From Sphaerochaetaceae bacterium (GTDB lineage: Bacteria > Spirochaetota > Spirochaetia > Sphaerochaetales > Sphaerochaetaceae): a stretch of 64,000 nt of DNA. Below, one piece after another: positions 3,020 through 37,518 of this stretch. The notes beneath the pieces were generated by a model that was given only the letters and a program-made list of their open reading frames with translations, was not told where the DNA came from and did not search any database. Every line of letters starts with the position of its first letter. Position 1 is the stretch's first letter. The position numbers and the translations under genes were made by a program. The stretch spans positions 1 to 64,000 of the forward strand of contig JAQQAR010000016.1 in NCBI GenBank assembly GCA_028532765.1, read 5' to 3'.

Positions 3020-4280
3020 TATGCAGACAGAATCGATGTTTGGCACCAAGGCAGAGAGCCTGCTCTTGATGCAGAAACGCGCTCGCTTATCGATATTCTG
3101 GAAAGTGATATTTATCTTCGCTACAACAGTCGCAGTCTTGTTTCTGCTGCTGTTGCTTGTATCGGTGATTGACTCCATTTTTGGGTATGCAGTCATCAGA
3201 AACGAGGTGAATATTTCAGAGTTGATCAGTGGGGCCTCGTCCTTGGATGAGTTCTCCCGGTCCCAAATGGAGGAGACTGCAAGGAACAACCTCTCCAGTG
3301 GGATACTGAGAAGGGTGGAGTATGAGAAGCCGATAGCAGAACGTTCCGATCGTGAGTTACGTGCCCTGATAGAGCAATATATCATAAAGCCATCGGTACT
3401 CAGGAGCTGGGGCCTTTGGGGCTCGATCACCAAACAGGATGAGATTGGTGCCTTTATGGCAAATCAGGAAGATTCGTATTTGATCTTTAAGAGCTGGATA
3501 ACCCCGGATTTTCTTACCAATGACCAAAGTGCCAATCCCCTCAATGCTGGTATTCGCACTGCACTTCTTGGTTCTCTCTGGATTATTGCCATCACCTTCT
3601 TGCTGGCTTTTCCAATCGGGGTGGGTTCAGCCATCTATCTGGAGGAGTATGCAGAGGATACAAAACTGAATCGTATGTTGCAGCTCAACATCTTCAATCT
3701 CAGTGCAGTACCTTCCATTATCTACGGCCTTTTGGGATTGGCCGTATTTGTAAGGGCCATGGAAGAGGTGACCAGTGGGGCATTTCTCAGTGCGGTTGCC
3801 GATACCACTGCTAATGGCAGGACTATTCTCAGTGGAGGACTTGCCTTGGGGTTGTTGGTACTCCCGATCATTATCATCAACACACAGGAAGCCCTCAAGG
3901 GTGTTCCCGACTCACTGAGGATGAGCAGCTACGGGGTGGGAGCAACAAAGTGGCAGACCATCTGGAGTCAGGTACTCCCTGTCAGTTTTGACAGGATCCT
4001 AACGGGAACGATTCTCGCGCTTTCCAGGGCGTTGGGAGAGACGGCACCTCTGGTGGTCATTGGTGCCTCAACGTTCATCAGCGTTGACCCTTCCAGTATC
4101 TTCTCGAAATTCACGACCTTGCCGATTCAAATCTACCAGTGGTCGGCTCGTCCCCAGGGTTCATACCGCAATATTGCAGCAGCAGCCATCATTGTCTTGT
4201 TGGTACTTCTGCTTGTGTTGAACAGCGGGGCGATCTATCTCAGAGACAAACTCGCCAAGAAAAAGAGGATGGCAGCATGA
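3012..4280 (+). CDS. pstA: Phosphate ABC transporter permease PstA with long N-terminal extracytoplasmic region
   Basis: At 422 residues this is about 130 longer than a minimal PstA. A first membrane segment (about residues 30-55) is followed by about 120 mainly polar residues before the permease core begins near residue 180 ([21 protein letters not shown]). The layout resembles PstA proteins carrying a DUF3333-type N-terminal region. The EAA loop lies near residues 300-335 ([18 protein letters not shown]). The start may be 3012 or the ATG at 3021. It overlaps pstB by four bases (ATGA). Confidence 0.92.
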
Positions 4281-5107
4281 AAGTAATGCAAGCAACAGAA
4301 GCAGAAAGTTTTGAGTTCCTAGGGAAAGCAGAACCAGATACAAAACAGGAGATCATAACCCTGGAGGACGTGAATATCCATTACGGCAATTTCCAAGCGG
4401 TAAAGGATGCTTCCCTTCCCATCTATGAGAAACAGGTTACTGCATTCATTGGACCTTCAGGGTGTGGGAAGAGTACCGTACTGAGAAGCATCAACCGAAT
4501 GAATGACATGATAAAGGGGGCAACGATTGATGGTAATGTACTGTTCCATGGCCACGATCTCTATGCGAAGGATGTTGACCCGGTTCTGATCAGAAGAAGC
4601 ATCGGCATGGTGTTCCAGAAACCCAATCCATTCCCCAAATCGATTTATGAGAATATTACCTGGGGAGCAAAAATCAATGGATTCAGAGGGGACTACGACG
4701 AACTGGTGGAGACCAGCCTGCAGAAGGCAGCTCTCTGGGATGAGGTCAAGGATAAGCTCAAGCAGAATGCCCTTCGACTCAGTGGAGGACAGCAGCAGCG
4801 TCTCTGTATTGCAAGGACCCTGGCTGTACAGCCTGAGGTTATCCTGATGGATGAACCGGCCTCAGCACTCGACCCTATCGCAACAGGTCGTATCGAGGAG
4901 CTGATCCTCGAACTGAAGAAATACTACACGATTGTCATTGTCACGCATAATATGGGTCAGGCATCACGTGTTTCAGACCATACCGCATTCTTCATGGTTG
5001 ATGTGAAGCGGACGGGCTATCTGGAGGAGTATGCTCCCACCGAGCAGCTGTTCCTCAACCCGGCACATAAAAAGACGGAAGAGTACATCTCCGGTAAATT
5101 CGGTTGA
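4277..5107 (+). CDS. pstB: Phosphate ABC transporter ATP-binding protein PstB
   Basis: The gene encodes 276 residues. The Walker A motif is GPSGCGKST, the ABC signature is LSGGQQQR, Walker B is [12 protein letters not shown], and the switch His is in VTHNMGQ. The start at 4277 forms an ATGA overlap with the pstA stop. A longer open frame reaches into pstA but has no domain content. Before the nucleotide-binding domain lie about 25 extra residues. It powers phosphate import and in other bacteria also takes part in signalling to PhoR through PhoU. Confidence 0.95.
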
Positions 5108-5122
5108 TCCTGGGAGGGAATC

Positions 5123-5800
5123 ATGGACCAAAATATCAGTAAACTTGATGAGAAGATGCAATTCTTCCAAGAAATGCTCATTCAAATGGTGAATAGGGTG
5201 GAGGAAGCAATCTACCAGGCACAATATGCGTTTCGGAACCACGATGTGGAGTTGGCCAAGAAAGTCATAGCCAACGACTGGTTCATCGACCAGCTGCAGG
5301 AGATGGTGGAGAATGATGCTGTGAGACTTCTGGTAAGTGAGACTCCTTATGGGCATTATATGCGTCATATCATTGCAGGGATCAAGATTGTATCCAGCTT
5401 GGAGAGAATGGGTGACCATGCTGCCCATATGGCAAAGATGGCAAGTAGTGAAGAGGAAGCAATGTTTATCCCGTTTGTAGAACGTATCAGCGAAATGGCA
5501 CTGCTCGGTGCTACCATGACCCGCAAGGTTGTTGAAGCCTTCATTGATGTGAAGGCAGAGAAGGCAATCGAGGTTGCATCCCTTGACGACAAGATGGATG
5601 CAGAGCGGGATGCCTTGAACGCTGATTTGTTTGCTCTCAGGCCAGAGACAGAGGCTGAGATGGAGCGTATCCTCAATCTCTTTTATCTGACAAAGGAGAT
5701 GGAACGGTATGGGGACCATGTTACTACCATATGCCGATGGATTGTCTACATGGACAAGGGTCAGAGGCCGAAGCTCAACGGACCAAAAAAGACTGAGTAG
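5123..5800 (+). CDS. phoU: Phosphate-signalling regulator PhoU
   Basis: The protein has 225 residues with the two three-helix-bundle repeats of PhoU. Each repeat carries the acidic metal-binding motif E-R-x-G/Y-D-H (LERMGDHAAHMAK near residue 95 and MERYGDHVTTICRW near 195). It begins 15 bases after pstB behind a GGGAGG ribosome-binding site. PhoU links Pst transport state to the sensor kinase, which here is the convergent neighbour. It ends the operon at a GC-rich hairpin. Confidence 0.95.
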   Translation: MDQNISKLDEKMQFFQEMLIQMVNRVEEAIYQAQYAFRNHDVELAKKVIANDWFIDQLQEMVENDAVRLLVSETPYGHYMRHIIAGIKIVSSLERMGDHAAHMAKMASSEEEAMFIPFVERISEMALLGATMTRKVVEAFIDVKAEKAIEVASLDDKMDAERDALNADLFALRPETEAEMERILNLFYLTKEMERYGDHVTTICRWIVYMDKGQRPKLNGPKKTE

Positions 5801-5816
5801 AAAACTCCAAAGCAGC

Positions 5817-5838
5817 ATCCTCCCCGAAAGGGGGGGAT
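5817..5838. terminator. Bidirectional terminator between phoU and the sensor kinase gene
   Basis: ATCCTCCCC (5817-5825) pairs with GGGGGGGAT (5830-5838), with one G-U pair, around a GAAA tetraloop. The hairpin sits between two convergent genes and is followed on the + strand by a T-rich stretch. Confidence 0.75.
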
Positions 5839-5843
5839 ATTCT

Positions 5844-7685
5844 TTAGTGTTTTTTGTAGAGCTCTTCGCTCCGTTTTTGCAGGTCCTTCAGGTTTCCACC
5901 CATCCTTGGGAGTGTGATGGTAAAGGTACTTCCTTTTCCCAGCTCACTCTCAAGCGAGAGTTTTCCCCCATGTACATTCACGATATGTTTCACAATGGAT
6001 AGGCCAAGGCCGGTTCCTCCCTGACTCCTGCTTCTTGCTGCATCAACCCGGTAGAATCGCTCGAAAATCCTGTCTTGGACAGCCTTGGGTATTCCAATAC
6101 CATGGTCCTTGACGCTGAAGACAATCTGGTCCTCACCAACAGTTGCCGAGAGATGAACCTTCGATCCTGCTTCAGAGTAATTCAATGCATTGATCACCAA
6201 GTTTGTCAAAGCCTGGGCAATTAGGTTTTCATTGACATAGAGCAGGAGATTATCTGGATTGTCCGAGGCGATGTGCAGGCTGCTGCCACGTTCCTCGTAT
6301 CGATAGGAACAAGCTTCTTCCGTTTCTCCTACAATCTGCTCCAGGGTGGTCCAGCTCATGGATGCCTTGTGCTGTTCTTGCTCAAGGCTGCTGAGCAATA
6401 ACAAATCCTCAACAAGTTGTCTCATTCTGTTTGCTTGCCTGCTGATGATCTTTGAGAAGTGGGAAATTTCCTCTGGATTCTGCGTCTCAGTGAGTGCTTC
6501 CGCAAATCCAGCAATTGAGGTAATGGGGGTTTTGAGTTCGTGGCTTACATTGGCCACAAAATCCTTGCGGATTTGCTCAAGACGTTTTAACTCTGTCATA
6601 TCATTTATGGAGAGTACCACTGAGTTGACGAATCCTTCAGATGATCGGACAGCACAGGTGACCATCCTCAGCTCCCGCACCTGTTGTTTTCCTGCAATTC
6701 GTGCAGTATGCCCAAAAAGATGTCCATACTGTTCGATGGTGAGTTCCCTCTCCTCTCCATCACGAAGTGTGGCATTACAGAGAGTACGCACTTCGTTGGA
6801 ACTGATAAGCTGGGAAAGATTCTTGTCAAGGACCGAGTCTCTCTGGTCAGTGAAGAGCAAGTGGGCCTCCCTGTTTGCTACCTTGATGTTCAGGTTCCGG
6901 TCGAGGAGAAGAATTCCTTCACTGAGGCTGTTGAGAATGGCTTCCACTTGGTTCTTGCCGAACTCAACCTGAGAAATCTTTTCCTGGATCTCTTGGGCCA
7001 TCTCTTCCATGGTATGGGCGAGTTCAGCGAGTTCCTGGGGGGATGAGAGATGGAGTCTTGCTTGGAGGTCGCCTGTTGCATATTTACGCGCAAGGCCCTT
7101 CAAACGGTCAAGTGGGCGGGTAATCATCGTGATGACGAAGAAGGTAAGGAGCAAGAAAAAGAGCACTAGAACACCAATGCCTCTGAAGAAGAGGCTTTGG
7201 TAGGTCTTCTGGTACCCAGAGAGTTGGTTGAGCGTCTTGGAGACTCTCAGTATGGCAATGGTGGGATGGTCTTCCAATGCTACTGCCCAGTAGAGGACGG
7301 GAAGGTTCTGGGTGCTGCTACGCCGTTCACTGGAAGCACTCCCGTTTCTCAATGCTGCTTGGACTTCCTCGCGATAGAGGTGATTGTTCAACGTCTCTGC
7401 AGCGTAGTCAGAGTCAAAGAGAACAACGCCCTCACGGTTGATGATGGTGATCCTGGTCGAAGTGGAAGCTGCATACGAGTCAAAATGTTCCGCCATCCAT
7501 GGCTCAGCTGAGTTCTTGGAGAGGGTTGCCAGATACTCTGCCTTGGCAGAGAGCTCTGCGTAGGTTGTTTCCCTGATGGTAGTGGCGAACGAGCGGTTTG
7601 CAATCCACATACTGCCAAAGAGTGAACACACCAGAACCAAAAAGGTAGTCAACGCCAAACGTGCACGAATGCTTTTGTATTGCAT
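5844..7685 (-). CDS. phoR: PhoR-type membrane sensor histidine kinase
   Basis: The protein has 613 residues. In order: a membrane segment near residues 8-28, an extracytoplasmic sensor region to about 160, a second membrane segment (about 165-190), a HAMP linker, a PAS-like region (about 245-365), a HisKA domain with the phospho-accepting His in VSHELKTP, and a HATPase domain with N box NLVINALNYS and glycine boxes DHGIGIP and GGTGLGLSI. The ATG at 7685 has GAGG six bases upstream and is preferred over a GTG at 7697. Its position beside phoU suggests phosphate sensing. The probable partner is the PhoB-type regulator at 13227-13907, which is not adjacent. Confidence 0.87.
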   Translation of the reverse strand: MQYKSIRARLALTTFLVLVCSLFGSMWIANRSFATTIRETTYAELSAKAEYLATLSKNSAEPWMAEHFDSYAASTSTRITIINREGVVLFDSDYAAETLNNHLYREEVQAALRNGSASSERRSSTQNLPVLYWAVALEDHPTIAILRVSKTLNQLSGYQKTYQSLFFRGIGVLVLFFLLLTFFVITMITRPLDRLKGLARKYATGDLQARLHLSSPQELAELAHTMEEMAQEIQEKISQVEFGKNQVEAILNSLSEGILLLDRNLNIKVANREAHLLFTDQRDSVLDKNLSQLISSNEVRTLCNATLRDGEERELTIEQYGHLFGHTARIAGKQQVRELRMVTCAVRSSEGFVNSVVLSINDMTELKRLEQIRKDFVANVSHELKTPITSIAGFAEALTETQNPEEISHFSKIISRQANRMRQLVEDLLLLSSLEQEQHKASMSWTTLEQIVGETEEACSYRYEERGSSLHIASDNPDNLLLYVNENLIAQALTNLVINALNYSEAGSKVHLSATVGEDQIVFSVKDHGIGIPKAVQDRIFERFYRVDAARSRSQGGTGLGLSIVKHIVNVHGGKLSLESELGKGSTFTITLPRMGGNLKDLQKRSEELYKKH

Positions 7686-7745
7686 AATTTTCCTCACTTG
7701 ATTCTACCAACGTTGGTTCAAGCAAGACAAGAGAAGCGTACGGTA

Positions 7746-7763
7746 TTCATACTTTCTTCACAT
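7746..7763. promoter_or_regulatory. Candidate Pho box between phoR and the FemAB gene
   Basis: On the + strand TTCATAC (7746) and TTCACAT (7757) form a direct repeat with an 11-base period, the spacing of PhoB half-sites. It lies in the divergent promoter region of the kinase and the FemAB-type gene. Its orientation would suit the + strand gene. PhoB dependence is inferred. Confidence 0.4.
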
Positions 7764-7831
7764 TTTTCCTCCCTTCCCCCTTTTTTCTTTCTGTGGTATG
7801 GTTTTCTTTGAATTATTATTAGGAGTTTGCA

Positions 7832-8905
7832 ATGAATCTCACGGTGCAGGAAAAAAATCCTGCTGGTCTCTATGATACCCCTCTGCTGCATCAATCGTAT
7901 TTCTGGTCTCAAGTGAAGGAGAGCCAAGGATACCACACCAAAGCATTTGACATAAAAACACCACTTTCTGAACTTAATGGGAAACCTGGCTCCTCCTATA
8001 TCCTGGATGACATCCTTGTCCAGTTGATACCGGTTAATCGGTACCAAAGCATCGGTTATGTACCCTATGGACCGGTTTTGAATCCTGATGAAGAGAGGAT
8101 GGGTCCCTTCCTGGAAGAGCTTTCGATGAACTTAAAAGAGAAGCTACCTTCCCATTGTCTTCTGCTTCGCTATGACCTTCCTTGGCAATCGATCTGGGAA
8201 GAGGATGATGTTTCTCTCTCCCTGCAGAATCTTAGACTCAACTGGGGGACAAACAACAAGCAACTAAGAAAAGCAGTCTCGAACCAGCTTCCCAGTGATA
8301 CCATGTTCGTGAATCTGCTGGGGAGTGAAGAGCAAATTCTCTCTCGCATGCATCACAAAACCCGTTACAATATTCATCTTGCGCAAAGAAAGGGAGTAGA
8401 AGTCCGCCAGGTTGGGAGAGATCACCTGGATACCTTCTACTCACTGTATGAGGAGACCTGTGAGAGAAACCGGATAACCTTGCACGATCGCTCATATTTT
8501 GATGCACTGTACAGCGCTGAAGATGAGGGAGCTGAAATTGTACTCCTGATGGCTTTCTTTGATGGACAGCCTCTCAGCGCCATGTTCCTCAGTCGTTCAG
8601 CGCGCCGGGCAACTTATCTCTATGGAGCCTCTTCCTCCAAGATGAGGAACTCCATGAGTACCTACGCCCTGCAGTGGCATGCGATTCTGTTGGCGAAGAG
8701 ATGGGGATGCACTGAGTATGACCTCTTCGGAGTCTCTCCTACGGGCGGAATAAACCACCCGATGAGTGGCCTCTATACCTTTAAGAAAGGGTTTGGCGGC
8801 ACCACCTTCCATAGGATGGGTTGCTGGGACTTTGCCTATGATGAGGAACAAGCCTCGCAGTTATTTGCCTATGAGATGGTAGGGGAAGGGTATCACCTGC
8901 GCTGA
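7832..8905 (+). CDS. FemAB/FmhB-type aminoacyltransferase (GNAT fold)
   Basis: The 357-residue protein resembles the FemAB family, which adds amino acids from aminoacyl-tRNA to peptidoglycan precursors. Visible family traits are an N-terminal ligand-binding half with aromatic residues (HQSYFWSQVK), a central SRMHHKTRYNIHLAQRKG block, and a C-terminal acyltransferase half with ATYLYGASS and DLFGVSP...GLYTFKKGFGG. The start is supported by TTAGGAG seven bases upstream. It is divergent from phoR and overlaps the next, convergent gene by 13 bases. The exact acceptor and amino acid cannot be assigned. Confidence 0.85.
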   Translation: MNLTVQEKNPAGLYDTPLLHQSYFWSQVKESQGYHTKAFDIKTPLSELNGKPGSSYILDDILVQLIPVNRYQSIGYVPYGPVLNPDEERMGPFLEELSMNLKEKLPSHCLLLRYDLPWQSIWEEDDVSLSLQNLRLNWGTNNKQLRKAVSNQLPSDTMFVNLLGSEEQILSRMHHKTRYNIHLAQRKGVEVRQVGRDHLDTFYSLYEETCERNRITLHDRSYFDALYSAEDEGAEIVLLMAFFDGQPLSAMFLSRSARRATYLYGASSSKMRNSMSTYALQWHAILLAKRWGCTEYDLFGVSPTGGINHPMSGLYTFKKGFGGTTFHRMGCWDFAYDEEQASQLFAYEMVGEGYHLR

Positions 8906-9861
8906 AACAGCAGGGTTGCCACACCTCCGCAGATCATCCCAATACTGCCGGCACGTTCATTGCTCAAATCGTAGCGCACCGTATGGTCTTGCATTTGCCC
9001 ATCCAGGAGCATCTTCTGTGCCTCTTTGATCGCCCTTGCCTCAATCTCTCCACCACCCACTGTCCCCATTAGGGTCCTGTCAACAAACAGGGCTAGTTGG
9101 AAACCGACTTCACACGGAGCTGATCCATGTTTTTCCACTACACGGACGAGAATATGAGGTTCGCCGGTTGCCTGACGGGCAAGCAATTGTTCGTCCAGCC
9201 TGACCGCTTGTTCTTTCTTGCGGTATTCGCTGATGACCTGCGCAAGAATGGAGAGGGCAATCTCCGAGGAAGTCACTGCCCCGATATCAAGCCCAATGGG
9301 AGCTTTCACAGAAGCAAGTTCTGCTTCACTGTAATTTGCATCGCGTAGTGCATCAAAGGTGTTTGCAACCTTTTTCTTGCTGCCGATCATGCCGATGTAG
9401 GAGTGGGGTAGGCGTAGTGTTTTCTCCAGGCAGAGCCTGTCAAAGGCATGCCCTCTGGTGGTGATGATGAAGTACGGTCTGATCCACCGTTGAGGCCTTT
9501 CCAGAACCTCTTCAAACGGAGCACAGAGACAGGTAGCCTGAGGAAATCGTTCTTGATTACAGAATTCTGGGCGATCATCGACGATTGTGACCCGTAAGGC
9601 AAGATCAATCGCAAGATGGTAGAGGTCGAGGGCAATATGACCACCGCCAAAGATGACCAGATGCACATCGCTGGAAAGACGCTCCCTGAGAAGACTGGGA
9701 TCATCCCAGTCATGCTCGCCTCTCTCTAAGCTGGCGATGACTTTCTTGTTCTGCAGGATTGCCTCATCCCCTGTGAAGGGACCCTGCAGGATAGTCCTTC
9801 TCTCTACGATATCATATTTCAATGCACTGAGTAGTTGTGAGTAATAGTGTTTCCTATCCAT
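8893..9861 (-). CDS. XdhC-family molybdenum hydroxylase maturation factor with swapped domain order
   Basis: The protein has 322 residues. The Rossmann (XdhC_C) domain comes first: VIFGGGHIALDLYHLA near residue 70, VDDRPEF, GMIGSKKKV, and APIGLDIGA. The XdhC/CoxI domain comes last: VVEKHGSAPCEVG near 235, GTVGGGEIEARAI near 262, and IGMICGG near the end. Canonical XdhC proteins have the reverse order. XdhC proteins insert the terminal sulfur or selenium ligand on the Mo cofactor and hand it to xanthine-dehydrogenase-like enzymes. The ATG at 9861 has AGGAGG before it. It probably works with the next two genes upstream on the same strand. Confidence 0.83.
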   Translation of the reverse strand: MDRKHYYSQLLSALKYDIVERRTILQGPFTGDEAILQNKKVIASLERGEHDWDDPSLLRERLSSDVHLVIFGGGHIALDLYHLAIDLALRVTIVDDRPEFCNQERFPQATCLCAPFEEVLERPQRWIRPYFIITTRGHAFDRLCLEKTLRLPHSYIGMIGSKKKVANTFDALRDANYSEAELASVKAPIGLDIGAVTSSEIALSILAQVISEYRKKEQAVRLDEQLLARQATGEPHILVRVVEKHGSAPCEVGFQLALFVDRTLMGTVGGGEIEARAIKEAQKMLLDGQMQDHTVRYDLSNERAGSIGMICGGVATLLFQRR

Positions 9862-29499: not shown

Positions 29500-29574
29500 G
29501 GGTTCCTCACTTAACTTTGCGCAAGTGTATCTGAAAGATTGGATATGGGTCAAATGCTCTTCTGATATATTGCA

Positions 29575-29602
29575 TTGTGATTCAGCGTAATTTTTGTTAT
29601 AC
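29575..29602 (+). promoter_or_regulatory. Possible promoter of the SDR gene
   Basis: TTGTGA (29575) and TTATAC (29597) are 16 bases apart, 25 bases before the SDR start. A weak sigma-70-type match. Confidence 0.35.
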
Positions 29603-29626
29603 AGAGATAAAAAGGGAGAAAATACA

Positions 29627-30367
29627 ATGCGTTTGACAAATAAAGCCGTTCTGATCACTGGGGGTACGAGAGGAATAGGGAAGGCAATGACATATCGGTT
29701 TGCCGCAGAAGGTGCAAGAATTGCTCTGCTTGTACGTAGAGATGTAGATGAATTCGTACAGGAATTACAATCCTTGGGTTATTCAGTAATAGCCATTAAA
29801 ACCGATATCACAGATTATGATCAGGTAAATCAGGCGATTAATTCCGTGATTGAAAAGTTTGGTACAATAGATATTCTGGTGAATAACGCTGCAACAATTG
29901 CCCGTGGTAGTGTACTTGAGATGACTATGGAACAATGGAAAGAGGTCATGGATGTGAATCTGAATGCGGCGTTTTATTGCTGCAAAGCGATTATTCCACA
30001 TTTTATTGAGAATGGGAAAGGAAATATCATCAATATGTCCTCAGTTGCAGCAAAATGTGGTGATATCACAGCTGCTCCTGTCTATGGAACTTCAAAAGGA
30101 GCCCTCACTACCTTGACTAGATCCTTAGCTCGTCAATTGGCTTGTCATGCTATCCGTGTAAATGCTATTGCTCCTCATGCAATAGTAACAGAAATGAGCG
30201 GACAATGGTCGGAGGAAAAGCGTAAACAAGTAGTTTCTTCGATACCTATGGGAAGAATGGGGAGTGTTGATGAGGTTGCCATGACGGCACTTTTTCTCGC
30301 AACTGATGAAGCTCCTTTTATCACTGGGGAGACAATTAACATCAATGGTGGTTATCTCATGGATTAA
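29627..30367 (+). CDS. Short-chain dehydrogenase/reductase (classical SDR)
   Basis: The gene encodes 246 residues. The cofactor motif is GGTRGIGKA near residue 13, followed by NNAA near 88, the catalytic Ser in NMSSVAA, and Tyr-x3-Lys in VYGTSKGA near 153. The C-terminal ETININGG is usual for the FabG/glucose-dehydrogenase-like group. The ATG at 29627 has GGGAG upstream. It is the only + strand gene of the AT-rich catabolic island and converges on it, so it may oxidise a sugar-derived hydroxyl in that pathway. The substrate is unknown. Confidence 0.88.
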   Translation: MRLTNKAVLITGGTRGIGKAMTYRFAAEGARIALLVRRDVDEFVQELQSLGYSVIAIKTDITDYDQVNQAINSVIEKFGTIDILVNNAATIARGSVLEMTMEQWKEVMDVNLNAAFYCCKAIIPHFIENGKGNIINMSSVAAKCGDITAAPVYGTSKGALTTLTRSLARQLACHAIRVNAIAPHAIVTEMSGQWSEEKRKQVVSSIPMGRMGSVDEVAMTALFLATDEAPFITGETININGGYLMD

Positions 30368-30373
30368 TTAGTC

Positions 30374-30400
30374 TATGAGCTAGAATTGCTCTAGCTCATA
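30374..30400. terminator. Hairpin between convergent SDR and PIG-L genes
   Basis: TATGAGCTAGA pairs with TCTAGCTCATA over 11 bases around ATTGC. It sits just past the SDR stop and 17 bases past the PIG-L stop. There is no strong T-run on either side. Confidence 0.6.
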
Positions 30401-30416
30401 AAGAGAACTCATTTTC

Positions 30417-31157
30417 CTATTTTCTTTCTGAAATTGGTAATTGTGTACCTACATATGGAGAGAATCGTTTGAATCCTTCGGCGTATTCTATGTCAAGTTT
30501 GGTCCATACTCTAGCTTGAAATGCTCTATGACGCGCAAAATGAATATAAAAATCCTTTAGCTGGGGTTGGCATGCAAACTGTTTAATTGCTTCAATTTTA
30601 TCTTCGTGTACGCTGCTCACATCAATATAAAAATCTGGAGAAAATTGATTGAATTCACTCATAGGGACTGTTGGTTCGAAGAAATAAATATTGGGATAGT
30701 ATTGTGCTTTTGTATCTGGTAAGGCACCAAGTTGAGACGCACTGTTGCATGCCATAACTACTGCGTTTCCGGTTATAGCATGGTCTGGATTGGTTGGGTC
30801 ATTTGTAAAGTGAGTGAAGATGATTTCAGGTCTTATTTCCAGAACACGAGAGATTAAGAATCGAGTACGCGTTGCATCAATAGTTAGCGGGTAGTCATCC
30901 CAATCAAGAAATTCAATCGTTGCACCAATTTTTTTGGCAGCCTCAGTTGATTCTTGTTTCCGAATAGATGCACATTCTTCATACGTACCAGTTGGAATTG
31001 TCTTCCAATACCCTGCAGACTCGCCATGGGTACCGCACGTTAAAGCGATGATGTGTATTGAATAACCCATATTTGCATATGTGATTAATGTTCCGCCAGC
31101 TCTTGTACAATAATCTGCAGCGTGTGCACTAACAACGAGAATATCTTTTTGGCCCAT
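30417..31157 (-). CDS. PIG-L/LmbE-family hydrolase resembling 4-oxalomesaconate hydratase GalB
   Basis: The product has 246 residues. The metal-binding start is ILVVSAHAADYCTRAGG, where PIG-L deacetylases usually have PHPDD. The AHxAD variant with CGTHGESAGYW resembles GalB, a hydratase of gallate breakdown. THFTNDPTNPDHAITG near residue 115 gives the second His-x-x-His-like metal block. It lies 33 bases below a hairpin that may end the main operon. It may deacetylate an amino sugar or hydrate a keto acid in the same pathway; neither can be chosen from sequence alone. Confidence 0.72.
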   Translation of the reverse strand: MGQKDILVVSAHAADYCTRAGGTLITYANMGYSIHIIALTCGTHGESAGYWKTIPTGTYEECASIRKQESTEAAKKIGATIEFLDWDDYPLTIDATRTRFLISRVLEIRPEIIFTHFTNDPTNPDHAITGNAVVMACNSASQLGALPDTKAQYYPNIYFFEPTVPMSEFNQFSPDFYIDVSSVHEDKIEAIKQFACQPQLKDFYIHFARHRAFQARVWTKLDIEYAEGFKRFSPYVGTQLPISERK

Positions 31158-31189
31158 ACTAATTGCTCCATACAGTGAAAGAATAAAAT

Positions 31190-31209
31190 GGGCTGCAAAC
31201 CTGTAGCCC
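31190..31209 (-). terminator. Terminator or attenuator after the epimerase gene
   Basis: GGGCTGCA (31190-31197) pairs with TGTAGCCC (31202-31209), with one G-U pair. Read on the minus strand it is followed by CATTTTATTC. It lies 21 bases after the epimerase stop, separating the PIG-L gene from the rest of the operon. Confidence 0.6.
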
Positions 31210-31230
31210 GAACAACATTTACTATTGGTC

Positions 31231-31884
31231 CTATATCGTTCTCATCCAAGAGATGAGTTTGGTATAGTCTGTCTCCTCCTGGTCAAACAAAATGAGACGA
31301 CCAAGAACATATCCTTCGACTCCTTTTGCGCTTAATCTACTCATATTATGCTTGTCAACGCCACCGTCGATAACAATTGGGAATCCCCATGGCTCACGTT
31401 CTTTTACTGCTTGCTCTATTTTATCTTCAAGCCAAGGCAAAAAGAGTTGGCCGCAAAAACCCGGATTAACAGTCATCAGCATAAGATAATCAATGAGAGG
31501 GTATAAAGCTTTGATTGATTCAAGTGAAGTGCCTGGATTAATCACAACTCCTGCTTTCTTCCCAAGATCCTTGATCCTTTGCAGGGTAAGGGCGGGCTGT
31601 GGGTCAGCTTCTGGGTGAATGTATATGATATCTATTCCCGTGTCGGCCATGAGTTGAATATATCGAATGGGATCTTTTACCATCATATGCACATCAAGAA
31701 GCTTTTTTGTATGGCGTCTAACCACAGCCATTTCTGCAAGACTCATTCCGAAATTTGGTACAAAATCGCCATCCATTAAGTCAAGATGGAAAATGTCTAC
31801 TCCAGCTTTATCAAGACGGAGTACTTCTTCCTTAAGATTTTCTGTGTCCAAATTCATGATAGAAGGGCAGAGTAGTTTTTCCAT
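31231..31884 (-). CDS. Ribulose-phosphate/allulose-phosphate 3-epimerase family protein
   Basis: This TIM-barrel protein has 217 residues. Metal ligands are all present: His and Asp in FHLDLMDGDFVPN near residue 33, His in DVHMMV near 66, and Asp in VIDGGVD near 173. The loop MTVNPGFCGQLFLPWL is closer to D-allulose-6-phosphate 3-epimerase (AlsE) than to housekeeping Rpe. It would epimerise a ketose phosphate at C3. It lies nine bases after the DapA-family gene in the island operon. Confidence 0.82.
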   Translation of the reverse strand: MEKLLCPSIMNLDTENLKEEVLRLDKAGVDIFHLDLMDGDFVPNFGMSLAEMAVVRRHTKKLLDVHMMVKDPIRYIQLMADTGIDIIYIHPEADPQPALTLQRIKDLGKKAGVVINPGTSLESIKALYPLIDYLMLMTVNPGFCGQLFLPWLEDKIEQAVKEREPWGFPIVIDGGVDKHNMSRLSAKGVEGYVLGRLILFDQEETDYTKLISWMRTI

Positions 31885-31893
31885 AAATGCCTC

Positions 31894-32790
31894 CTATGCC
31901 AGCAGTCCGGCATCTGCCAAGATGTTTTTAAGAACGACTTTGTTTTCTTGGTTCATAGGTCCTACAGGAGCAAAACAAGGGCCAGCATCAATTCCTTGCA
32001 GTTCAAGACTTTCTTTTAGGATAGTAGGGTACGATCCTAGACTGAAAGCCATTCGAATTGGAGCGATTTTATATTGAGCCTCCAGAGAACCTTCAATGTC
32101 TCCAGCCACATACTTATCATAGATATCTGCCATCAGTCTTGGGGCAATATTTGCACAAGCTGTAATTGCACCATGACCACCGTATGCAAGACATGCATGG
32201 ATAAGCGTATCCCTTCCACTAAGAACAGAGAATTGATCTTTATTCTCACGGGTGTTACGGATATATTCACTCGTAAGGGTAAAATCACCGCTGCTATCCT
32301 TAATTCCTACAATATTTGAAATTTCGGATAACTTTGTGGCAGTTTCAACTGCAATATTGACATTTGTCTTTCCAACATTGTTATAGAGCAACATGGGAAG
32401 ATTTGTGGAAGAAGCTATACTCGCGTAGTGATTATAGAGTTCTCCTTGCGTTACACTTACAAACATAGGTGTTAATACACTAATTGCATCAGCTTTCACT
32501 TCTTCAGCCATTTGCGCATATTCAACGGCTTCTTTTGTGGTAATCCCATTTACTCCTGCATATACAGGTACTCTACCTCTAGCCTCATCTATACAAATTT
32601 GGAATGCTTCTTTTCTCTGTTCAGGAGAGAAGCCATAAAACTCGCCAGATGTACCTACAACGAACAAGCCATGCACGCCACCGTCGATAAGATAGCTTAC
32701 TAAACGTCTTAATCCTTTCTCGTTGACTTGTAGTGTGTCAGTCAACGGTGTAATCATAGCGGCAATGATTCCATTTGCCTTAAAACTCAT
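31894..32790 (-). CDS. DapA/NanA-family aldolase or dehydratase (class I Schiff-base lyase)
   Basis: This TIM-barrel enzyme has 298 residues. The Schiff-base Lys is in IVGIKDSSGD near residue 165. The Tyr is in LLYNNVGKT near 138, a variant of the usual YNxPxRT. GTSGEFYGFS near 47 is the carboxylate-binding loop. This family includes dihydrodipicolinate synthase, N-acetylneuraminate lyase and 2-keto-3-deoxy sugar-acid aldolases. In this context with a TRAP transporter, cleavage or dehydration of a sugar acid is likelier than lysine synthesis. Confidence 0.83.
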   Translation of the reverse strand: MSFKANGIIAAMITPLTDTLQVNEKGLRRLVSYLIDGGVHGLFVVGTSGEFYGFSPEQRKEAFQICIDEARGRVPVYAGVNGITTKEAVEYAQMAEEVKADAISVLTPMFVSVTQGELYNHYASIASSTNLPMLLYNNVGKTNVNIAVETATKLSEISNIVGIKDSSGDFTLTSEYIRNTRENKDQFSVLSGRDTLIHACLAYGGHGAITACANIAPRLMADIYDKYVAGDIEGSLEAQYKIAPIRMAFSLGSYPTILKESLELQGIDAGPCFAPVGPMNQENKVVLKNILADAGLLA

Positions 32791-32811
32791 ATGAAACTCC
32801 TTCTCCGTGGT

Positions 32812-33765
32812 TTATTGTAAGAATTCTTTATTTTTTGCAGATTCATATTCTTTGAATAAAGAGGTGCCCTTTATCCTATGGATAAGATCCAACTCATCTT
32901 CACTCATTGAGAGGTTATCCAATATTGAGACAGAGTCTTCGAGGTGAGAGACTTTCCCCGTACCGTATACTATTGTTGTCACTTCATCAAATGAGAATAC
33001 CCATTTCATTGCTGCATGAGCAAGAAGCGTTTTATCATCAATATTAGCTTCTTTTGCCATTTCGAAAAGGGCTCCCTTCATAAAAGCCTCTCGTGCGACC
33101 ACACCCATGTTTGCCTTTGCTGCCTCTTTAAGAACCTGTTTTGTTGCTTGATGATCGGCAAAATTAAAATTGATATAGACTACGTCAAAGGATCCTGTTG
33201 CTATCTGCTTTAAATATGTGCTTTCGCCACTGAATGTATCAGCACATGCATAACGAATAAGCCCTTCTTTTTTCAGCTGTGATACGTTGTAAGAAATTTT
33301 CTGCAAATATTCATTATCGCTCTCAAGAGCACTCTTCATAAATGCAAGATTAAAAAAATCAATTGTGTCTCTTTGCAAGAGCTTGAGGATTCTCTCTGCT
33401 TCAGCTTTCAAGGTTGCGTAATCTGCCATCTTCTTGTTGTTTTCATCATATGTATAGCAAAAACCTTCTGGACGTGTTTGGATGTACACAGGAAAGGGTG
33501 GTGGCAGCTCTTGTAAATTACGGCCTAAAGCTTCCTTTTCTGAATCGTGTGTCACGTCATAGAAATTAATACCTAAATCATATGCAGATGAAAGGATTTT
33601 CTTGCGATTCTCGCCTCCAAACCCTGGAAAGATATACCCAGGTGTAATTGCTTTTTCAAAATCTTCATTGAATCCTCTGGATTTATGGTTTGGAAGATAT
33701 TCATGACCTCCCATTGAGATCATGGAAATGTCTATTCCTGTATTTCCTAGTGGTTTATATTTCAT
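32812..33765 (-). CDS. Aldo/keto reductase-like protein lacking the usual catalytic tetrad
   Basis: The 317-residue AKR-fold protein starts MKYKPLGNTGIDISMISMGG. The usual tetrad Asp-Tyr-Lys-His is mostly gone. The Asp survives in NFYDVTHDSEKEALG, but the following Tyr is absent; the Lys block reads VYIQTRPEG, and the His block reads DFFNLAFMK. The C-terminal cofactor-binding segment TTIVYGTGKVSHLEDSV is retained. It may bind NADP without classical reductase chemistry, or catalyse another reaction. It lies between the TRAP permease gene and the DapA-family gene, with gaps of about 22 bases. Confidence 0.8.
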   Translation of the reverse strand: MKYKPLGNTGIDISMISMGGHEYLPNHKSRGFNEDFEKAITPGYIFPGFGGENRKKILSSAYDLGINFYDVTHDSEKEALGRNLQELPPPFPVYIQTRPEGFCYTYDENNKKMADYATLKAEAERILKLLQRDTIDFFNLAFMKSALESDNEYLQKISYNVSQLKKEGLIRYACADTFSGESTYLKQIATGSFDVVYINFNFADHQATKQVLKEAAKANMGVVAREAFMKGALFEMAKEANIDDKTLLAHAAMKWVFSFDEVTTIVYGTGKVSHLEDSVSILDNLSMSEDELDLIHRIKGTSLFKEYESAKNKEFLQ

Positions 33766-33788
33766 ATTTTTGCTCCTCTAATAATGCT

Positions 33789-35072
33789 TTATGTGCCATA
33801 TACTAAGTTGGGTAAGAAAAGAATAACATCCGGAATTGCTAGAAGAAGGATCCCAACAAGAATAACTACAATAAAGAACGGGATACTTTCTTTCATATAT
33901 TCAGACATTTTTACATCTAATATTCCGTTGACAATATACATTGCTATTCCTACAGGAGGGGTCAGGATGCCCATTGTTACAATTATGCTGGTGATGACTC
34001 CAAAAAGAACAGGATCAATGCCGATTGTACGAACGATTGGCATCAAGATGGGAGTAAGCAAGAGAATAACTATTGAGCCATCCATAAACATACCAAAAAT
34101 CACGTACAATACAAAAACAATTCCCATGACCACGAACTGACTGGAAGTAAAACTGGTTATGAAAGTTGTTAGTTTTTGTGGGATCTGATCCATTGGTATC
34201 CCGTATGCAAAGATTGCACTCATGGATATCATAAACATGATTGCCCCGATATCGCGAATTGCTTCCTTCAAGGTTTCTATCAGCGATGCAAGTGTCATTT
34301 CCTTATACACGAAAAAGCCAATGATTATTGCGTAAACACAAGCAAATGCACCGACTTCAGAAGGTGTAAATAGGCCAAGTCTAAGGCTACCGATCAGAAC
34401 GATTGGAAAAATCAGAGCCCAAATAGTCTCTTTCAATGATGAAGCGATTTCTTTGAGTGACGCGCGTTTCTCACGAGCACGAGGAAATTTCCGTATTCTG
34501 GCAGTAATTGCAACTGTGAGCATCATAGCTGACATCATGATTATTCCGCTCATAATACCAGCAGTAAACAGACGTCCAATAGATACTTCTCCTACTGTCC
34601 CGTAGAGAATCATACCAACCCCTGGAGGAATAGTGGAAGTAATCAGACTGGTAAAACCAATGACAACTGCAGTATATCCACGTGGATATTTCTGTGAGAG
34701 CATCTCAGGCCCTAGAATACGTGCTTCCATAGCAGCGTCTGCATTGGAGGATCCAGAACATCCACCCATGAATGTACTGAGAACAACACTTACCTGGGCC
34801 ATGCCTCCACGCATATGTCCGGCAACCTGCATGGAAAGTTTGATGAGTCTGCTGGTAATACCGCTACTATTCATGAGGCTTCCAGCAAATATGAAAAGTG
34901 GAACTGCTAATAGAGTAACACTTTGCGTCTGGGAAATTGGCAATTGAACGATGGTAGCGAAGGGGAGTTCTGGATGCTGGAAGAAATAAAATAGACCAGC
35001 AATGCCGAGAGAAAACCCAACAGGTACCCCTACGATTAAGAAAAACAAGAATATTATCAGTACCAAAATCAT
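33789..35072 (-). CDS. TRAP transporter large permease (DctM family)
   Basis: The protein has 427 residues with about 12 hydrophobic segments and family motifs such as FLIVGVPVGFSLGIAGL near the N-terminus, GGCSGSSNADAAMEARIL near 110, and PPGVGMILYG near 150. It forms the sodium-driven channel of a TRAP system with the small permease 11 bases upstream and the binding protein two genes upstream. The imported compound is probably an organic or sugar acid fed to the downstream enzymes. Confidence 0.92.
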   Translation of the reverse strand: MILVLIIFLFFLIVGVPVGFSLGIAGLFYFFQHPELPFATIVQLPISQTQSVTLLAVPLFIFAGSLMNSSGITSRLIKLSMQVAGHMRGGMAQVSVVLSTFMGGCSGSSNADAAMEARILGPEMLSQKYPRGYTAVVIGFTSLITSTIPPGVGMILYGTVGEVSIGRLFTAGIMSGIIMMSAMMLTVAITARIRKFPRAREKRASLKEIASSLKETIWALIFPIVLIGSLRLGLFTPSEVGAFACVYAIIIGFFVYKEMTLASLIETLKEAIRDIGAIMFMISMSAIFAYGIPMDQIPQKLTTFITSFTSSQFVVMGIVFVLYVIFGMFMDGSIVILLLTPILMPIVRTIGIDPVLFGVITSIIVTMGILTPPVGIAMYIVNGILDVKMSEYMKESIPFFIVVILVGILLLAIPDVILFLPNLVYGT

Positions 35073-35083
35073 GGTTTCCTCAC

Positions 35084-35593
35084 TTATTGTTTTTCATTCT
35101 GTACGCTTTGCGCAACAGATGAATTCTCTCTTACGAGTGCTTTCATTTTTAAGACGGTCGTGATTATCATGAAAAAACAAGGTATGGGAATACTCAATGT
35201 TGCCCATGTGTAACTCATAAAAGGAATTCCTTGGAATGTCCGATTCCTGGATGAATAGGCAAGTTTAAATCCATAATAGACCATGAGAATGAGAAAAATG
35301 AGAATCAGTGAGTAGATGAAAAGCTTTAAAACCTTTTGGGCTTTTGGGCTAAGTTTTTGTTGAAAGATCTCAACATTAACCATTTTATCATCTCTCAAAG
35401 CTGTGTCTGCACCTACATAGACAGACCAAGTAAACATCAGTAATGCTACGTCCAATCCCCAGTTGATGGGAAATCCAATAGTCCTTAAAATTGCAGCCAA
35501 TGTGAGCATGAAGACAGTCGAAATAAGTAAGACTGCCCCGAAAGCAAGCTCAATTGCACAAAATTTTTCGTATGCCTTTGCTAAGCGTTTCAT
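35084..35593 (-). CDS. TRAP transporter small permease (DctQ family)
   Basis: This 169-residue protein has four hydrophobic segments. The DctQ hallmark FPINWGLDVALLMFTWSVYVGADTALRDDK lies around residues 40-70. The ATG at 35593 has GAGAGGAA upstream and removes a spurious 21-residue extension. It pairs with the large permease 11 bases downstream. A stem-loop separates it from the binding-protein gene. Confidence 0.9.
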   Translation of the reverse strand: MKRLAKAYEKFCAIELAFGAVLLISTVFMLTLAAILRTIGFPINWGLDVALLMFTWSVYVGADTALRDDKMVNVEIFQQKLSPKAQKVLKLFIYSLILIFLILMVYYGFKLAYSSRNRTFQGIPFMSYTWATLSIPIPCFFMIITTVLKMKALVRENSSVAQSVQNEKQ

Positions 35594-35618
35594 TATGTTC
35601 CTCTCAACTTGGTATATA

Positions 35619-35647
35619 GGCCTGCAACCACATATGGATTGCAGGCC
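35619..35647 (-). other. Intercistronic stem-loop after the TRAP binding-protein gene
   Basis: GGCCTGCAA (35619-35627) pairs perfectly with TTGCAGGCC (35639-35647), with extra CCA/TGG pairing inside. It lies just below the binding-protein stop and before the small permease start, without a T-run. It probably raises binding-protein mRNA over permease mRNA, like the pstS-pstC hairpin. Confidence 0.6.
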
Positions 35648-35665
35648 AAGATACACGAGCGTTAC

Positions 35666-36667
35666 TTATTTCCCGAGTTCAGCGTAGACAGCTGCTTTTG
35701 CTTCTGCCAAACCAAGAGATTCATATGCTTTTTCTCCAGATTCGATGAAAGCTTCAACATCAAGATCACTATGAGGGATATAGGTCATGCCCTGATCAAT
35801 CATGAACTGGCGGTCTGCCTCAGCATTCTGAAGAAGAATGTTGGATGCATCCAAACCAGCATTATTACATTCCTCAATCAAGATTGCTTGATAGTCAGCA
35901 GGCAACTTGTTGAACCAAGCAGAACTAACAACCATGACATTGAGCTGGAAGATATGCTGAGTTTCGACAATATAGTCAGCCACTTCGTATACTTTCAGCT
36001 GTTTTGCAGCGGCATAAGGAAGTTCACAACCATCCACAACCTTGGTCTGGATGCCGTTGTACAACTCACCATAAGCGAGTGCAACAGCCTTGCTTCCCAA
36101 CGAGTTAACAGTAGCCAGCCATGCTGGTGCATTAGCTGTACGAATCAAACTGTTACGAAGTTCGGAAGGGCTCTTTCCTGGCTTATTGGTGAATACGTTT
36201 CTAAATCCCTGAACCCAAGCATAAGAAACAACTTTAATCTGGTGTTTTTCCTCAAGTTCATTTACCCAACCCTGAATTACTTTAGAGTCAAGAAGTTGTT
36301 CGACATCATCAATGCCAGAGAGGAAGAACGGCATGTACAGAATTCCCCATTCCTTTACATAGTTGCCAAGACGAGCGGGGTCAGTCTGCCAACCAACATT
36401 TGAGCCAAGCCTGATCTGTTCAAGAACATCTTCTTCTACACCAAGTTGAGCGCTGGGGTAGACTTCAATCTTGAGCTTGCCGTCAGTTCTTTCAGAGACA
36501 GCTTTTGCCCATTCGAGATACTGTTTGTGAAAAGTATCTTCGGGTGTCAATACGTGGCCAAATCTCAGTAAATATTCTTGGTCACCCTTTTGCTCTGCTG
36601 CACCCTGTGCCATGATAGGCATGAGTAATGCAACCAACATAATTCCAATTAGCAATCGTTTCTTCAT
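35666..36667 (-). CDS. TRAP transporter substrate-binding protein (DctP family)
   Basis: The gene encodes 333 residues with a signal peptide (MKKRLLIGIMLVALLMPIMA, followed by QGAAEQ). DctP features include RFGHVLTPEDTFHK near 36, PSAQLG near 76, and an Arg in GFRNVFTNKPGKSP near 160, the position that commonly binds a substrate carboxylate. This supports an acidic substrate. The usual TRAP order is kept, with the binding protein first. The upstream GntR gene is separated by a short hairpin. Confidence 0.92.
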   Translation of the reverse strand: MKKRLLIGIMLVALLMPIMAQGAAEQKGDQEYLLRFGHVLTPEDTFHKQYLEWAKAVSERTDGKLKIEVYPSAQLGVEEDVLEQIRLGSNVGWQTDPARLGNYVKEWGILYMPFFLSGIDDVEQLLDSKVIQGWVNELEEKHQIKVVSYAWVQGFRNVFTNKPGKSPSELRNSLIRTANAPAWLATVNSLGSKAVALAYGELYNGIQTKVVDGCELPYAAAKQLKVYEVADYIVETQHIFQLNVMVVSSAWFNKLPADYQAILIEECNNAGLDASNILLQNAEADRQFMIDQGMTYIPHSDLDVEAFIESGEKAYESLGLAEAKAAVYAELGK

Positions 36668-36692
36668 AATGATTCCTCCACTTGTATTTACT

Positions 36693-36709
36693 GAACCTTT
36701 ACAAGGTTC
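36693..36709 (-). other. Small hairpin between the GntR gene and the TRAP operon
   Basis: GAACCTT (36693-36699) pairs with AAGGTTC (36703-36709) around three bases. It could attenuate or process the transcript between the regulator gene and the binding-protein gene. Confidence 0.45.
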
Positions 36710-36723
36710 GTTGAGACAAATTC

Positions 36724-37374
36724 CTAGTTATAGGTGGTCAAAGCCGAAACATAATTATCTGCAAGCGCCTTGCACGTTTCATTAAGGTGAGCATCCATTA
36801 GCGCCTCACAGCGAGCTGCGTCTTTCTTCTCAAGTGCATCCAATATTTCAAGGTGAGCTATCCTGGAATGCTCCTCAATAGTTGGTTGATGCTTGGTAAG
36901 ATTTCGGGTCAGCTTCATTAATGCAGATAGTTTTGAAGAAAATTCCTTTAGGTATCTATTGTCTGCGAGCTCGATGAGAAGCCCATGAACCTGATCACCT
37001 AAGTCAGTTGCTTTTAAACCACCGTCTTGTCTGATGTCTAGGTCTAGAAGTTTATTTCGTAGATCTTCAATTCGTTTGGGGATATCTTTTCGGCTGGAGT
37101 AACATGCAAAACGAGCACAAGAACCTTCAATTGAACGACGAGCATTAAAGATTTCAACAACATCTTGAAATGAAAATTCTCGGATTTGGTAGCCTCTATT
37201 ATTCTGTACCTCAAGCAACCCAAGCATTACCAATCTATTCATTATTTCTCTGATTGGGGTCCTTGAAAATCCGTAAGTCTGTACCAAATCACGTTCAACC
37301 AGCCATGTTCCTGGTAGAAACTCTTCGTTTAGAATGCGGCGTTGAATATCTTCAAAGACTTCTTCCTTAGTCAT
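36724..37374 (-). CDS. GntR-family transcriptional regulator (FadR/FCD subfamily)
   Basis: The regulator has 216 residues: a winged helix (LVERDLVQTYGFSRTPIREIMNRLVMLGLLEV, residues about 25-55), then an all-helical FCD domain whose metal/ligand His residues include DQVHGLLIEL and SRIAHLEILDAL. FCD regulators usually respond to sugar acids, keto acids or related catabolic substrates. Its position at the head of the TRAP/enzyme operon makes it the likely local regulator. The ATG at 37374 follows GGTGG and removes an 19-residue upstream extension. Confidence 0.88.
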   Translation of the reverse strand: MTKEEVFEDIQRRILNEEFLPGTWLVERDLVQTYGFSRTPIREIMNRLVMLGLLEVQNNRGYQIREFSFQDVVEIFNARRSIEGSCARFACYSSRKDIPKRIEDLRNKLLDLDIRQDGGLKATDLGDQVHGLLIELADNRYLKEFSSKLSALMKLTRNLTKHQPTIEEHSRIAHLEILDALEKKDAARCEALMDAHLNETCKALADNYVSALTTYN

Positions 37375-37399
37375 CGGTAATCCACCTTTTGTATCCCAT

Positions 37400-37420
37400 T
37401 GGTATACCACTAGAATACCA
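37400..37420. promoter_or_regulatory. Candidate GntR operator
   Basis: TGGTATACCA (37400-37409) is a perfect palindrome, and TGGTAT (37400) with ATACCA (37415-37420) forms a second inverted pair. They lie 26-46 bases before the GntR start, a place suited to autorepression. FCD regulators often bind short TGGTNNNACCA-like sites. Confidence 0.45.
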
Positions 37421-37518
37421 TGAATATACATGCTGTCAATAAATTTCTTACATTTTTTGATATGTGTTAAATATCAGATGATTGTGTCTCATTAAAATTC
37501 AAAAAAGGTTGATAAATA

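Follow-up and report, generated by a model that had tools for sequence, protein, structure and literature searches.

We analysed a stretch of 64,000 nucleotides (the window) from a Sphaerochaetaceae bacterium, comprising positions 1 to 64,000 of contig JAQQAR010000016.1 (C16) in a genome of 3.16 Mb and 93 contigs (GCA_028532765.1, here G000). Between yhhQ and arcC lies a cassette of eight minus-strand genes, for a GntR/FCD regulator, the DctP, DctQ and DctM components of a tripartite ATP-independent periplasmic (TRAP) transporter, an aldo/keto reductase (AKR)-fold protein that we call AKR*, a DapA-family protein, a ribulose-phosphate 3-epimerase (Rpe) family protein and a PIG-L-fold protein, together with a short-chain dehydrogenase/reductase (SDR) gene that faces them. 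With a probability of roughly 55%, the cassette serves as an accessory catabolic operon, repressed by its FCD regulator, for the use of an acidic compound (most likely a sugar acid) that is taken up from outside; AKR* would act first and aldol cleavage would release pyruvate. It is best read as TRAP-linked catabolism of sugar acids in a new form, one that employs a non-canonical AKR-fold enzyme. The gene set, the exact limits of the cassette, the conservation of an operator, the loss of active-site residues from AKR* and the co-occurrence of its genes across phyla are all apparent from sequence comparison.

All nine genes match Pfam families above cut-off, as expected from an earlier reading of the window (the sequence-only reading), which had described a coherent import-and-degradation set. 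The core, from GntR through DctPQM and AKR* to the DapA-family gene, is retained at one locus in eight genomes of the same genus. Two of these (G091 and G092) have the core and the SDR without the epimerase and PIG-L genes, and a third (G095) has the same core and lacks both genes at that place; thus, on this comparison, the epimerase and PIG-L genes are an optional module and not part of the core. In another genus (G007), the genes up to the contig end include DctPQM, AKR* and PIG-L, with an Rpe-type gene different from that of the cassette.

The AKR-fold protein and its relatives

AKR* (32812–33765, minus strand, 317 aa) was assigned from a weak match to PF00248 (65 bits), a predicted structure and an alignment of the catalytic tetrad. 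Its AlphaFold2 model is a high-confidence AKR barrel (pLDDT 95.4), and the best Foldseek matches in the PDB are all AKRs, with a TM score of about 0.7 and 19% identity, which places the protein in the (alpha/beta)8 fold. AKR14A1/YghZ and related AKRs share this fold with AKR* as well as the catalytic Asp, and the C-terminal pattern G-x5-H/Q-L-x2-D/N falls on the cofactor segment of YghZ in the alignment, so that the cofactor pattern is partly kept. However, only one of the four residues of the canonical Asp-Tyr-Lys-His tetrad remains when AKR* is aligned with ordinary AKRs from the same order: Asp70 is retained, Tyr is deleted along with its loop, Lys is replaced by Arg98 and His by Ala141, the last column being Pro or Gly in relatives. 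The sequence-only reading had called the protein tetrad-less, which is nearly right, the exception being the Asp. With three of the four catalytic residues gone, standard AKR reduction chemistry is unlikely.

Across 28 sequences of the family, with identities down to 41%, the invariant residues include G19, G20, H21, E22, S29, R30, F32, N33 and E34, and further D70, D74, E76, R98, N139, D176, R225, E226 and K230. Among them are motifs that set the family apart from YghZ and its relatives (GGHE, SR.FNE, TRP, N139 and RE...K). The residue pattern points to an active enzyme whose site has changed, and not to one in decay. Tentatively, AKR* may be the founding member of an AKR-fold family with non-reductase chemistry, for example a sugar-acid dehydratase or isomerase, which would open an undescribed route from import to pyruvate that is patchy across several phyla and uses interchangeable transporters and aldolases.

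The AKR* family is rare. At E <= 1e-60, it is present in three of 393 spirochaete genomes, all of this genus. A scan of 84,980 species, based on short patterns that will miss members and leaving out records very near the window, gave 27 loci of the family, in Planctomycetota, Flavobacteriaceae, Alicyclobacillus, Marasmitruncus, Atribacteria, Deltaproteobacteria, Desulfobacterales, Rhodospirillales, Rhizobium, Bosea, Bordetella, Gemmatimonadetes and Poribacteria. A plasmid collection contained no relatives of the window AKR* or of the AKR* of locus L058 at E 1e-20.

Gene neighbourhoods were counted in the fetched flanks of the 25 loci outside the genus (L042–L066), which include three close pairs (L045/L047, L060/L062 and L063/L064) and are therefore not fully independent. 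A transporter membrane gene directly precedes AKR* in 12 of the 25, namely DctM in four (L042, L043, L048 and L065), an ABC permease in six (L049, L050, L053, L063, L064 and L066) and an MFS permease in two (L046 and L051). The flanks of 13 loci hold a pyruvate-type aldolase, of the DapA family (L042, L045, L047 and L049), the HpaI family (L048, L049 and L051) or the RraA family (L046, L058, L060, L062, L063, L064 and L066). As a background, the three families have 8 + 1 + 2 (11) matches in the 3.16 Mb of G000, or about 0.07 per 19 kb. RraA homologues that bear the metal motif probably act as pyruvate aldolases (PMC5065237). One arrangement, in Bordetella (L063), runs binding protein, two permeases, AKR*, RraA and MalK, with only two enzymes. 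Dehydrogenases are also frequent near AKR*, either as SDR (window and L056) or as D-2-hydroxyacid dehydrogenase (L048, L058 and L062), and PIG-L and an Rpe-type gene occur together with AKR* in L043, L047 and L048. The co-occurrence search that the sequence-only reading had proposed finds that AKR, DapA, epimerase-type and PIG-L genes co-occur across phyla (L042, L043, L045, L047 and L048). From the position of AKR* beside transporter genes and the pyruvate-type aldolases nearby, we infer that it is the first enzyme to act on an imported acid, in a route that ends in cleavage to pyruvate.

Several points weigh against this interpretation. In Rhizobium and Bosea clusters, AKR* is accompanied by an enolase-family dehydratase, so that AKR* need not be the dehydratase there; enolase-family dehydratases beside it in L058, L060 and L062, together with an IlvD/Edd protein in L046, weaken the idea that AKR* stands in for the usual dehydratase everywhere. 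At several loci (L055, L056, L057 and L059), no aldolase lies within reach. The transporter types vary widely and could reflect different substrates. Finally, we infer the substrate class, the order of the steps and the chemistry of AKR* alike.

In three ABC-type clusters, which come from different lineages, the gene directly behind AKR* encodes an exported-looking protein; these proteins form a family that matches neither Pfam nor NCBIfam (L049, 9878–11140; L050, 9963–10946; L052, 9960–10979). The genes behind AKR* were considered as a shared partner, and this was rejected, as the corresponding open reading frame (ORF) in L058 is unrelated to the protein of the other three.

Uptake, regulation and downstream enzymes

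The genes for the three TRAP components are adjacent on the minus strand and form a complete transporter: the large permease DctM (33789–35072; PF06808, and above the cut-off of TIGR00786), the small permease DctQ (35084–35656; PF04290), the true start of which is probably further in, and the solute-binding protein DctP (35666–36667; PF03480, and above the cut-off of NF037995). The closest solved structure to DctP is 2hpg (TM0322), which gave no pointer to a ligand.

The GntR/FCD regulator (36724–37374, minus strand) matches PF00392 and PF07729. Its start had been placed at 37431 by the sequence-only reading, which is probably too early: alignment with orthologues makes 37374 the probable start, and the upstream ATG lies beyond both promoter and operator. 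The promoter is of the sigma-70 type (37412–37439, minus strand), with a -35 box TTGACA (37439–37434), a 16-bp spacer and a -10 box TATTCT (37417–37412), and is conserved in all aligned orthologues. Just downstream of the -10 box, a position that fits a repressor, lies the palindrome TGGTATACCA (37400–37409), a predicted FCD operator. It has a single exact copy within the window and is conserved across genera, in six orthologues of the same genus and in L042 from another lineage; similar sites precede the GntR gene in L039/L043 and L047. These features fit a predicted role of the GntR/FCD protein as a repressor at TGGTATACCA. TRAP-linked operons for hexuronate and gulonate with FCD-type regulators of the UxuR/ExuR type are known, and the cassette resembles them in its FCD regulator with a TGGTATACCA operator, its TRAP uptake and its oxidoreductase. 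Unlike them, it has no uronate isomerase, mannonate or altronate dehydratase, 2-keto-3-deoxygluconate (KDG) kinase or 2-keto-3-deoxy-6-phosphogluconate aldolase.

The DapA-family protein (31894–32790, minus strand; PF00701, 250.7 bits) is a class I aldolase/lyase with a full-length family match, in which the Schiff-base Lys is kept (NIVGIK motif), as in KDG aldolase, N-acetylneuraminate lyase (NanA), KdgD and 4-hydroxy-tetrahydrodipicolinate (HTPA) synthase. It differs from these enzymes in that the carboxylate-binding Arg of HTPA synthase (dihydrodipicolinate synthase) is replaced by Lys, and it falls below the cut-off of every equivalog model, including that of HTPA synthase (TIGR00674; 203.9 against 206.15). 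A better DapA copy is encoded elsewhere in the genome, on contig C24.

This protein bears on an alternative in which AKR* or its partners make 2-keto-3-deoxy-hexarate, the type of compound handled by KdgD (DapA family), GarL (HpaI family) and FlDet (RraA family). TRAP systems often take acids, and the HpaI-family protein of L048 scores best against 2-dehydro-3-deoxyglucarate aldolase, below the curated cut-off. A further point in favour is that FlDet is an RraA-family 2-keto-3-deoxy-hexarate dehydratase/decarboxylase (PMC8563752). Against such an aldarate route, the DapA-family protein reaches 122–138 bits with KdgD models, far below its 204 bits with dapA, and the cassette has no aldarate dehydratase. 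We regard this route as unlikely.

The epimerase (31231–31884, minus strand; PF00834) is the second copy of its family in the genome, a better housekeeping Rpe being encoded on contig C8. It shares with ribulose-phosphate and D-allulose-6-phosphate 3-epimerases the metal-binding His/Asp ligands and the NPGF-x-GQ loop, and differs from them in the phosphate loop, where Arg stands in place of the Ser of the housekeeping Rpe. It scores below the equivalog cut-off of TIGR01163 (191.5 against 212.6) and belongs to the broader subfamily NF004076; its identity to the Rpe-type genes beside AKR* in other phyla is only 30–32%. From the change of Ser to Arg, it is possible that the enzyme acts on an unphosphorylated substrate. 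The sequence-only reading had found the lack of a kinase odd, and there is indeed no kinase, nor an aminotransferase or deaminase, among the Pfam matches of the cassette genes. The lack matters less when the epimerase is optional and its phosphate-loop Ser is Arg, which eases the puzzle and does not prove it away. The adjacent arcC was rejected as the missing kinase; it lies outside the cassette and is present in all 26 genomes of the genus that were searched, with or without the cassette.

The PIG-L-fold protein (30417–31157, minus strand; PF02585) appears to be a paralogue of the hydratase GalB. By far its closest solved structure is that of 4-oxalomesaconate hydratase (GalB, 5cgz), with an E value of 6.5e-37 against 5.5e-8 for the next, and it shares with GalB the PIG-L fold, H-x-A-D in place of HPDD, and the GES and DH motifs. 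Its identity to GalB-type proteins is only about one third, with 33% to the genome's own GalB-like protein (contig C66), and its cassette lacks the tautomerase and aldolase partners of GalB.

PIG-L proteins are mostly deacetylases and the DapA family includes NanA. These two general points favour the alternative of the sequence-only reading, an amino-sugar acid pathway with PIG-L as deacetylase for an N-acetyl group and the DapA-family enzyme working like N-acetylneuraminate lyase. However, the first Asp of HPDD is Ala (H-A-A-D) in all aligned PIG-L proteins of the island type, and deacetylase activity was rejected for want of this catalytic residue; moreover, NanA models score far below cut-off, and the aminotransferase, kinase and deaminase are absent. 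This pathway is very improbable.

The resemblance to GalB favours instead the lower pathway of an aromatic-derived tricarboxylic acid, in which PIG-L would hydrate a GalB-type substrate and the DapA-family enzyme cleave the product, in the manner of GalB and 4-carboxy-4-hydroxy-2-oxoadipate (CHA) aldolase in gallate degradation. We consider this quite unlikely: the genome holds a complete set for such a pathway elsewhere (TRAP-TAXI, hydrolase, GalB-like protein, 4-oxalomesaconate tautomerase and CHA aldolase), to whose GalB-like protein the cassette PIG-L has only 33% identity; the cassette has no tautomerase; and the core of G091 and G092 does without PIG-L.

The other set lies on contig C66 (L089, G000:C66:5000-20000), where genes for a TAXI-TRAP transporter, an amidohydrolase, the GalB-like PIG-L protein, a GntR regulator, the tautomerase and the aldolase follow in a row (2537–9594), the last two scoring above curated cut-offs. 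It represents a lower pathway of the protocatechuate/gallate type in a spirochaete, possibly for the uptake of 2-pyrone-4,6-dicarboxylate.

The SDR (29627–30367, plus strand, 246 aa; PF13561/PF00106), with its start corrected to 29627, has orthologues in the same position in G091, G092 and G095. In one clade member (G113; L034, 4944–6855), about 1.9 kb of different sequence stands in place of the first 154 codons of the SDR gene, and the remaining cassette is intact.

For the sugar-acid operon that we favour, the following course may be proposed. DctPQM, judged by its family, would import the acid, and AKR*, encoded directly behind the permease, would be the first to act on it. Our best guess for this step is a redox-neutral isomerisation or dehydration to a 2-oxo or 2-oxo-3-deoxy acid. 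The SDR would oxidise or reduce one hydroxyl or keto position, and the DapA-family enzyme would split a 4-hydroxy-2-oxo acid into pyruvate and an aldehyde, or act on a 2-oxo-3-deoxy acid in dehydratase mode. The optional epimerase and GalB-like hydratase may broaden the range of substrates, the one by setting a stereocentre and the other by hydrating an unsaturated oxo acid before cleavage; a hydratase that supplies the aldolase with a 4-hydroxy-2-oxo acid would fit. The GntR protein would sit on TGGTATACCA, across the start of the operon to which it belongs, and be released when the substrate or an intermediate accumulates.

Site, base composition and age of the cassette

Comparison with empty sites sets the limits of the whole cassette at 29556–37517 (7962 bp). 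The nine-gene block of the sequence-only reading is real, and its limits (29594–37431) require correction to these. In eight genomes of the same genus (G115, G108, G093, G109, G101, G100, G096 and G104), the same flanks are separated by only 25–30 bp, and in G091, G092 and G095 the operon also lies between yhhQ and arcC, at the same junctions. The left junction falls directly after ...GGGTCAAAT and the right directly before ...TTGTTGCAATTTGTTGCA, so that presence and absence at this one site are precise, as in a genomic island. The site is empty in G115, yet its flanks are closer to those of G000 than are the flanks of G114 or G113. No integrase or transposase is encoded among the genes of 29556–37517; a search for att repeats was not made.

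At the empty site of G115 (L067, approximately 2538–2552), the left junction carries a palindrome, TGGGTCAAATACCCA, possibly an operator of yhhQ, which is interrupted by the cassette in G000. Other material is found at the site as well: between arcC and the operon, G095 has a sugar ABC transporter together with an epimerase of the Rpe type that belongs to another subfamily (L038, 5892–10700), and G107 has a different 2.3 kb with ORFs of 396 and 113 aa (L072, 2039–4332). From these two cases, the yhhQ–arcC site seems to be a hot spot that acquires cassettes.

The G+C content is 40.5% in 29556–37517 against 48.35% in the rest of the window. Windows of 7.8 kb elsewhere have a mean of 48.5% and a standard deviation of 0.5%, and the cassette lies about 15 standard deviations below. 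The counts of G+C in three 60-base lines on which the sequence-only reading had relied (19/60 and 21/60 inside the block, 35/60 outside) are exact, both low lines being below the block mean. Third-position G+C is 0.28–0.40 in the cassette and 0.49–0.58 in lon, pepU32, arcC and recO.

This depression of some eight points, the low third positions and the clean presence or absence at a defined site would agree with a recent arrival of the block by horizontal transfer from a distant, AT-rich donor. However, G091, G092 and G095 share the junctions with ordinary base composition, the third-position G+C of their cassette orthologues (0.57–0.75) matching their own flanks. Furthermore, the identities of G000 to G091 and G095 are 82 and 75% for the AKR, 86 and 84% for DctP and 81 and 76% for the DapA-family protein, and resemble those of the flanking genes (88 and 81% for arcC, 81 and 68% for yhhQ). 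Recent foreign import was thus rejected as a simple story, and we think it improbable; the block is compositionally foreign, as had been claimed, in the local sense only. The similar divergence indicates that the operon is about as old in the genus as the genes around it, or has moved only between close relatives. The cassette is AT-rich only in the clade of G000, G110, G113 and G114, despite a divergence from the sister species that is typical of neighbouring genes; replacement by a copy from an AT-rich relative is possible.

Significance

The open-access papers searched contain no description of the AKR* family or of a characterised pathway with the cassette gene set, in agreement with the sequence-only reading, which could match it to none; with coverage limited to such papers, the absence is weak evidence. 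Family profiles label AKR* simply 'aldo/keto reductase', and the route is easily overlooked. In our view the AKR-fold family is more interesting than the island itself. A family that has the AKR fold without the AKR machinery, and that lies repeatedly beside uptake systems and enzymes that cleave carbon–carbon bonds, offers a handle on an unknown catabolic route, the chemistry of which could be tested with few proteins: three in the minimal set of the genus (AKR*, the DapA-family enzyme and the SDR) and two in Bordetella (AKR* and RraA). The AKR* neighbourhoods in many unrelated bacteria suggest an undescribed way of catabolising sugar acids.

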